A stretch of 64,000 nt of DNA from an uncultured Thermoguttaceae bacterium (lineage in GTDB: Bacteria > Planctomycetota > Planctomycetia > Pirellulales > Thermoguttaceae). Location: the NCBI GenBank assembly GCA_937951625.1, contig CALFBP010000007.1, positions 1-64,000 of the forward strand, given 5' to 3'. The notes under the pieces are model-generated. The model was given only the letters and a program-made list of their open reading frames with translations. It made no database searches and had not been told where the DNA came from. The position numbers and the translations under genes were made by a program. Shown here one piece after another: positions 2,569-4,015 of this stretch (position 1 is its first letter; each line of letters starts with the position of its first letter).

Positions 2569-2883
2569 GACGCGACGATGCCGCTGTTTCACAAGCTGAC
2601 CGACCGTCTGCAAGCAAAGGCCCTAGTCAACAGCAACTTGAAAGCCCGCCAGCATTCCGGAACGTGACAAGCCAGCGCGGACACTGGAGGTTCACGCCCT
2701 CCGAGGTACTCTCGGCACGCTGTTGAACAAGAACAAAGTATCCCCCCGATCGGCCAAGCGGCCACGCGTCACTCGAAACGTGACTTGATTTTGAAGGTTT
2801 ACACCGACTTGAAGTCTTTGGACGTAGCTGCGCCGATAGAATCGCTTCCAAATCTCCCGCTCACTGGGGATATTGAACGGTAA
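2569..2883 (+). pseudogene. Decayed tyrosine recombinase (integrase), C-terminal remnant
   Basis: Three consecutive reading-frame fragments together reproduce the C-terminal half of a planctomycete phage-type integrase. The first, around 2569-2650, reads DATMPLFHKLTDRLQAKAL. The second, around 2651-2750, reads ASIPERDKPARTLEVHALR followed by GTLGTLLNKNKVSPRSAK, which is the box II HxLR motif with its usual continuation. The third, around 2757-2883, reads RHSKRDLILKVYTDLKSLD and ends near SLPNLPL, the usual end of the fold with the catalytic Tyr in VYTD. Frame shifts separate the fragments and no start codon or N-terminal domain is recognisable. The remnant reads towards the 3' end of tRNA-Asp, the usual orientation for an element integrated at a tRNA gene. 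Confidence 0.75.
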
Positions 2884-3057
2884 GCGATCGTCAGAAAGAC
2901 AACCGGGATCGACGATTTGAGGGCTCCCGAGTTTGCACCAAAGTTTTCACCAACCACTTGCGCAACGCGTTTAAAACGGTCGTTTGCCAACACGTTGTCA
3001 GGCGAATTAAACAAACCCCCCGTGCCGACACACTTGACATAAGTGCTTACTCTGGCG

Positions 3058-3097
3058 AAAAAAAGAACCCGCTGACCGGGGCTGTCAGCGGGTTCTT
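3058..3097 (-). terminator. Rho-independent terminator of tRNA-Asp
   Basis: A perfect 14-bp stem (3063-3076 with 3084-3097) closes a 7-base loop and is followed on the minus strand by a run of seven T (3064-3058). It starts five bases after the tRNA 3' end. Confidence 0.9.
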
Positions 3098-3101
3098 CGA
3101 G

Positions 3102-3175
3102 CGAGGGCGACGGGACTCGAACCCGCAACCACTGGATCGACAGTCCAGTACTCTAACCAATTGAGCTACGCCCCC
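3102..3175 (-). tRNA. tRNA-Asp (anticodon GTC)
   Basis: The minus strand folds into a complete cloverleaf. The acceptor stem is GGGGGCG with CGCCCTC (one G-U pair), the D-stem is GCTC/GAGT, the anticodon stem is CTGGA/TCCAG around loop CTGTCGA, and the T-arm is GCGGG-TTCGAGT-CCCGT. The anticodon is GTC and the discriminator base is G, the aspartate identity base. CCA is not encoded. The gene abuts its own promoter and terminator, and an integrase remnant lies beyond its 3' end. Confidence 0.96.
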
Positions 3176-3220: not shown

Positions 3221-4015
3221 GGGCTCGCAATTCTCTGTTTCGTGTTGGGGTGTTGGGGTGTTATCTTCCAGGATAACCCGAAGCAAAACACGGTCAATCG
3301 ACTCTGTTGTTTCGACTTTGCGACCATCACTGCTAGAGACTAGTCGTCATCGAATTCCAGTGTCCCGCCGGTATGTTCTCACAACCCCCCCTCGCGTGGG
3401 AAATGTTTGTGCTCCGCCAAGGTCGATCTTTTCGTTCGGTTCTTAGAGCTTATCCCACAACCTCCCCTCTCCCGCTCGCGAAAGAGGGGTTGGGGGTGAG
3501 GATAACTGCAAGGCAGGCGTTTTTCCCGTCGTCTGCAAAGATCTTGGGCCCTCACCTCGACCCTCTCCCGTGGGGAGAGGGGACTTTTGGGATAAACACG
3601 TAATGACCATTTGTTGGCCAGGCGGTGGCTTAGTTTCCGGCCCGTTTTCGGGCAGAAGCATGTATCTTGTCGCCTTTTGACCCGACGGGGATGTTTTCAT
3701 TCTTCCAGTGTCGCCGCGGAAATGGGATTAATCCCCGCAAAGGGTAATCATTCTTTCTGCAACCTCGCCGCTCGATGCCAGGGGGCAGACGAACCGTGCA
3801 GTCTATGTTCTCACCGAGCTTTACTGTATCGCTTTCCATTTCCATGCCCATCCTGTCGAATTGGGGATGGCTGCTTCGCACGGCGTGCTGACCGGCTTGC
3901 CGCAATAGGTACTTGACGGGTGGCGGCGTCTTGGCCACGATGGGCGGCAGTTCTTTGTGGGGAAACGTCAGGGACGTTTGCAACGACAACTCAGCAGGGG
4001 AAGGACAGTCGGGCC
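3221..4015. other. Intergenic stretch containing a dispersed repeat
   Basis: About 800 bases between the tRNA-Asp promoter and rhaB. Apart from the 144-base palindromic repeat listed separately, I see no gene: the open frames here are short, lack family motifs, and several run straight through the repeat. Confidence 0.6.
3451..3594. repeat. Dispersed 145-bp palindromic repeat, copy A
   Basis: First of three copies in the window; the others are at 24035 and 46336. Each begins TATCCCA followed by CCTCCCCTCTC and ends GAGAGGGGACTTTTGGGATA or a near variant, so the ends form an imperfect inverted repeat of about 20 bp. Inside are two further hairpins built from CCCCTCTC/GAGAGGGG and a conserved core containing GCAAGGCAGGCGTTTTT. 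All copies are intergenic and encode nothing, as expected for a small non-autonomous MITE-like element. Confidence 0.85.

Follow-up and report, generated by a model that had tools for sequence, protein, structure and literature searches.

The window, a stretch of 64,000 nucleotides, covers the opening 64 kb of a 95-kb contig in a draft genome of 4.59 Mb (105 contigs, 97.9% complete). Near its start lies an intact tRNA-Asp(gtc) gene on the minus strand (3101-3175; ARAGORN; Rfam tRNA, 70.6 bits). Reading towards the 3' end of this tRNA, on the plus strand, is the C-terminal part of a broken tyrosine recombinase gene (2627-3097), present as a fragment with the HALR box (2642-2785), a fragment with the RHS and VYTD boxes (2740-2880) and an integrase-frame tail (2884-3039). 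We take the VYTD box to be the site of the catalytic tyrosine. A further plus-strand frame (2877-3161) passes through a terminator-like hairpin into the antisense of the tRNA, where it reads RRDSNPQPL. The HALR, VYTD, tail and antisense-tRNA pieces are spread over three plus-strand frames, and the integrase frame is interrupted by an in-frame stop as well as by length differences of one base. Two TTGCACCA-like repeats can be seen on the same strand at 2931-2953; they align to like repeats in relatives and are possible arm-type integrase sites. On the other side of the tRNA, the intergenic DNA at 3455-3595 holds two facing GC-rich repeats (CCCTCTCCC.../...GGGAGAGGG) that resemble dispersed repeats.

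Generic databases are blank for these pieces. None of the four matched Pfam, and the VYTD piece, the one tried against NCBIfam and PHROGs, matched neither; it was also without a match among phage records. Profiles of the lineage itself were needed to recognize them. A protein profile built from the integrases of 16 relatives, without the window and without the distant branch L023-L025, was searched against 2810 fragments. It matches the HALR fragment at i-E 1.2e-10 (profile positions 395-432) and the VYTD fragment, taken as 2668-2880, at i-E 3e-12 (positions 430-471). The tail fragment (i-E 0.021; 9.8e-5 to one relative) and the frame that enters the tRNA (0.013) are weak matches when taken alone; the latter reaches 4.8e-11 against a homologue at tRNA-Asp, partly from the same tRNA being read in both. 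A DNA profile of the integrase genes of 24 public planctomycete loci, again made without the window, matches 2627-3097 (471 bases) in one collinear stretch (nhmmer, E 1.5e-58, 190 bits; next-best match in the window, 0.89). The best single relative, an element at tRNA-Asp (L206), is 65% identical over 526 bp. The surviving protein part corresponds to about profile positions 395-556 of 562, and the window thus keeps the last ~29% of the integrase profile, then the hairpin, then the tRNA. Upstream of 2627, neither protein nor DNA profiles matched the rest of the gene.

These results bear out the preliminary description, in which HALR and VYTD fragments of a tyrosine recombinase had been recognized in three frames facing the tRNA-Asp 3' end. 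It had placed the locus at 2569-3175; the tRNA end of that interval is correct, and the start shifts to about 2627, where homology begins. The profile search that it proposed as a decisive check gave a split answer, blank for Pfam, NCBIfam and PHROGs and positive for the lineage profile. Generic profiles alone would have led to a wrong rejection of the integrase identity, and the lineage profile is needed to recover it.

The VYTD piece also finds its counterparts in relatives. Searched against 60 of them, it has matches in 25 genomes at E up to 0.1 (best 1.4e-10), many of which sit in open frames of 540-715 aa. The relatives' intact homologues match Pfam Phage_integrase. One homologue with a long open frame lies at the tRNA-Asp of a relative (L009, G002:C115; public copy L206), a counterpart of the kind that the preliminary description had suggested looking for, and it supports the earlier idea that an integrative element, since lost, was attached here. 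As a source of the fragments, five further integrases encoded in this genome were considered and rejected, the best piece match being at E 0.02 in an unrelated frame. Elsewhere in the genome, integrase genes run towards the 3' ends of tRNA-Leu(caa) (L073, G000:C45) and tRNA-Leu(cag) (L074, G000:C93), with no meaningful match to the window pieces, and a locus beside tRNA-Lys (L026, G000:C13) weakly matches the N-terminal part of the integrase profile (0.0046). Viral contigs searched with one integrase gave nothing; a further search of viral contigs aligned nine loci, eight of which gave an integrase frame; in one, a tRNA stood where expected. Among 50,697 phage records, the relatives' integrase has no significant match at 1e-10; with the limit relaxed to E 5, the matches are weak and partial, none covering 80%. 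No plasmid matched at 1e-5.

The relatives show what the intact arrangement looks like. A genome scan returned 151 integrase relatives, of which the best 80 were kept, several of them being the public versions of loci that the relatives set already included; all of these best 80 yielded an integrase frame. The isolates matched by the scan are Aeoliella straminimaris, Rubripirellula obstinata and Botrimarina hoheduenensis. We searched for a tRNA 150 to 900 bp beyond the catalytic tyrosine, and 61 of the 80 loci have one. It lies on the opposite strand at a distance of 217-521 bp past that residue (median 298). The targets are mostly tRNA-Pro, -Ala, -Gly, -Val and -Asp, with seven other types occurring once or twice and one unassigned. 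In every one of the 61 loci the integrase frame stops inside or beyond the 3' end of the tRNA. From the tyrosine to the anticodon, this frame is open in 59/61 loci, compared to 4 and 0 for the other two frames; an overlapping set gives 15/17, compared to 2 and 0. In the first set of relatives a tRNA was found at 16/19 loci, and the frame enters it in 15/16. Because the integrase frame enters the tRNA throughout the 61 loci, the antisense tail RRDSNPQPL in the window reflects the native design of the family, which refines the preliminary description. The alternative that this tail is an artefact of decay is ruled out by the openness of the frame in relatives.

Between the integrase and the tRNA lies the hairpin (3062-3098), just downstream of the tRNA on the minus strand. 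It folds into 15 pairs, and on the tRNA strand a T-run comes after it; the folding energy is -26.5 on that strand and -24.7 on the integrase strand. The whole conserved module, consisting of the hairpin, the T-run and a AAGCACTTA block, spans 3037-3101 on the minus strand. We built a covariance model on the sequences of 12 relatives, the window not among them, and also left out L010 and L011 (whose hairpin sequence differs), L006, L008, L018, L023-L025 and two of the genome's own tRNAs. The model recognizes the window at E 5.6e-11 as carrying the hairpin module of this planctomycete integrase family. At all 17 sites tested the hairpin is stabler on the tRNA strand, and its G-U pairs fall on the tRNA strand at 16 of these sites and on the other strand at 2. 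A terminator-like signal follows the tRNA in 50/61 integrase loci, compared to 124/1220 single-base shuffles.

The same model finds the hairpin at two more tRNAs of this genome, after tRNA-Ile(gat) (2.8e-17; L028, G000:C18:6511-6650) and after tRNA-Ala(cgc) (1.1e-5; L054, G000:C33:122051-122164). The element DNA left beside it is 471 bp at tRNA-Asp, 183 bp of integrase tail at tRNA-Ile and ~39 bp at tRNA-Ala, hairpin-proximal at all three. A fourth remnant, with half a hairpin and no tRNA found nearby, lies on another contig (L286, G000:C25:245-305); its match to the model, at 250-314, is weak (0.004), and nhmmer gives 5.7e-8.

Across genomes we collected 67 modules, which are all matches of the covariance model down to E 1.6e-4 and include the 12 from which it was built. 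An intact tRNA adjoins 47 of them: 16 have an integrase core (some broken), 27 were treated as scars, the window included, and four were set aside as too near contig ends (L120, L141, L159, L172). In the remaining 20, inspection by eye places a partial tRNA 3' half ahead of about 16. Six of the 27 scars keep the integrase frame open over the final 100 codons, compared to 2 and 3 for the other frames. In one relative (G018) there are seven modules, of which six stand at intact tRNAs, and a single weak integrase match (E 0.098). The retention of the hairpin in scars is suggestive, with the limit that the covariance model itself selects on the hairpin; the window was found by its integrase motifs and is thus free of this bias.

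In relatives, both ends of the elements could be found. Twelve distinct elements of ~4 to 12 kb were delimited (L187, which is the same as L205, L188, L189, L190, L193, L194, L224, L225, L231, L234, L250 and L254), each with a repeated tRNA 3' half at its displaced end. The repeat starts at tRNA positions 24-32 in six of them (L187, L188, L189, L190, L193 and L194), which puts the crossover near the anticodon loop. The corresponding region in the window would be the anticodon of tRNA-Asp, at ~3139-3141. The HALR to VYTD boxes lie before the crossover in relatives and are kept in the integrated frame. L187 encodes, among the part of its genes that was scanned, a small terminase (Pfam 7.3e-18), a DnaB-like helicase (5.9e-17) and a primase-like protein (PHROG 8.4e-22), as well as integrase, SSB-like and HTH-regulator proteins; from this content it looks like a phage satellite or an integrative plasmid. 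Just outside the element in L188 (G040:C216), positions 1098-1917 of this locus crowd seven unusual tRNA predictions (Phe, Trp, three Arg, Cys and Pro) into 0.8 kb.

The element end bears the hairpin in 11 of the 12, weakly in L254. At the displaced end it is absent from five (L193, L194, L224, L250 and L254) and present in five (L187/L205, L188 without a T-run, L189, L190 and L231); L225 has half a hairpin there, as judged by eye, and L234 has it at the displaced end only. We read the hairpin as borne by the element, at sites often reused after an earlier element; at some sites it could be borne by the site instead.

To follow the integrase frame in the circular form, the element ends were joined by script; this simulation covers relatives only, as the far end is absent from the window. 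Across the joined ends, the integrase frame of 11/12 elements crosses attP, as described for Mx8, running on for 56-110 codons beyond the crossover and showing a tail motif that they share. The exception is L189, where the frame stops 39 codons past the crossover and has no motif. The integrase core is gone from L190 and frameshifted in L194, and the tail frame alone was followed there. Another frame stays open longer after the crossover in L188 (151 vs 110 codons) and L193 (122 vs 107), so openness or length alone is a weak sign.

The tails themselves are conserved. In leave-one-out profile tests, 12 tails each scored above the best of 200 shuffles, which control composition only; these tails were picked for a visible motif and come from ten elements plus L139 and L166, with L189 and L193 not included. 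In six tails, the differences at first, second and third codon positions sum to 88, 80 and 175, a third-position excess that points to selection on the protein. A point against the circular frame is that, of 20 modules without an intact tRNA, the motif is visible by eye in 7, three of which are also among the 12 elements. In one 7-kb public contig (L242, SYJG01000487.1), an integrase frame passes over an attP-like junction; the junction has the 3' half of a tRNA-Ala, and the contig lacks a complete tRNA gene. It does not prove a free circle: its ends do not overlap, the tail is broken off by a stop, and the junction may be a decayed tandem junction.

The window itself holds one arm. It contains a single copy of the tRNA-Asp 3' end, and a search of the genome for the displaced half, the duplication that the preliminary description had hoped to find, returned tRNA genes and weak short matches, none qualifying. 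One candidate (C33:32326-32356, E 1.96) was rejected because the fetched sequence lacks a tRNA half and its match is chance-like. With no displaced half in the genome, the element here is inferred from one arm, and we class the locus as a remnant rather than an element: a tyrosine recombinase gene, broken, beside a regenerated tRNA. We consider it highly probable that 2627-3175 is attL, the integrase-side arm of an element once present at tRNA-Asp and since lost. As far as the window goes, the description of an ordinary relic is well supported.

Several other explanations can be weighed against this one. Chance resemblance or antisense noise would fit the blank Pfam result, and antisense tRNA frames look alike in any genome; the collinear DNA match refutes it, at E 1.5e-58 over 471 bases to a profile made without the window and with the next-best match at 0.89, leaving this explanation with next to no probability. 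The hairpin poses a more serious question. Terminators are common at the ends of tRNA genes, and 9 of the 35 tRNAs of this genome are followed by a terminator-like signal, three of the nine being the module. The hairpin might accordingly be the ordinary host terminator of tRNA-Asp, never carried by an element, with the integrase fragments as the only foreign DNA, and the hairpins of the same kind at 5/12 displaced ends would agree with that. Yet the same hairpin family stands beside this integrase after different tRNAs in many genera; in this genome it follows three tRNAs, and the other tRNA downstream regions examined differ. In addition, 5/12 displaced host ends lack the hairpin while the corresponding element ends have it (weakly in L254). 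We regard a purely host-derived terminator as improbable.

A different objection concerns the open frame through the hairpin and the tRNA, which could be a by-product of constraint on the DNA, no long integrase ever being made from the circle. TGCACC repeat units in both arms explain part of the peptide motif (CT.ACT), the hairpin is conserved as an RNA structure, antisense tRNA frames can stay open without being genes, and other frames are sometimes equally long after the crossover. Against this, a further motif lies past the repeats at the tail ends, is conserved in the leave-one-out tests and shows the excess of third-position change. Moreover, of the 61 loci, just 4 and 0 have the other frames open over the hairpin and the tRNA half. 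Constraint at the DNA level alone thus seems unlikely to us, a little less so than a host terminator.

We favor the explanation that the locus is the attL remnant of a family with attP inside its integrase gene, and think it very likely to be correct as a whole. An integrative element would have inserted at the anticodon loop of tRNA-Asp and later been lost. In this planctomycete family, the integrase gene would cross the hairpin and then the 3' half of the target tRNA, read antisense; in the circle it would continue into a conserved C-terminal tail, which the far end of the element encodes. Integration would swap the tRNA 3' half and the DNA following it for the element's own copy, cutting off the integrase tail and supplying a new stop in or beyond the tRNA. 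In the window, the element body and the N-terminal part of the gene would then have disappeared and the rest drifted out of frame, with the tRNA and the hairpin left intact.

Related arrangements are known. Mx8, a phage of Myxococcus, targets tRNA-Asp genes. In the Islander paper (PMC4383910), the integrases of Mx8 and SSV are said to reach across attP, and the title of a paper cited there says that integration alters the C-terminus of Mx8 IntP. By this description the planctomycete integrase resembles IntP in both respects; the difference is that Mx8 is a full phage, whereas the planctomycete elements are small, insert at many tRNA types and carry the hairpin module. In the archaeal virus SSV1, strand exchange occurs at the tRNA anticodon loop and attP lies within the integrase gene, according to a review (PMC8371274), where suicidal integrases are called exclusively archaeal. 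The family shares attP within the integrase gene with these archaeal enzymes (SSV1, pTN3 and pT26-2), as they are described there. Their integration separates the N-terminal part from the catalytic domain, which inactivates the enzyme, whereas in the planctomycete family the catalytic part stays whole on integration and the tail alone is lost, which sets it apart from suicidal integrases. Integration-dependent immunity in mycobacteriophage BPs (PMC4557955) likewise has attP inside a coding gene and an integration that changes the C-terminus of the protein; the BPs gene encodes a repressor, the planctomycete gene an integrase. The gene content of L187 fits satellites of the PICI type as far as it was scanned, and the window keeps none of these genes. 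A search of open-access literature, which most subscription papers fall outside, turned up neither the planctomycete family nor a terminator that it carries. The principle is already known; the family and its terminator feature seem undescribed.

A broader reading, which we offer tentatively and hold to be somewhat doubtful, is that these elements ferry tRNA terminators: the host would keep the hairpin as a working terminator while the integrase erodes, the three tRNAs of this genome would represent successive stages of that process, and the cut tail would signal the state of integration. For the detection of lost elements, a sequence signature is now available for those that the generic profiles tried here miss. 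If the proposed explanation is true, many Planctomycetota genomes contain a family in which integration itself edits the integrase. It further suggests that mobile elements may change where transcription of essential tRNA genes ends, and that usable parts of them may remain afterwards.
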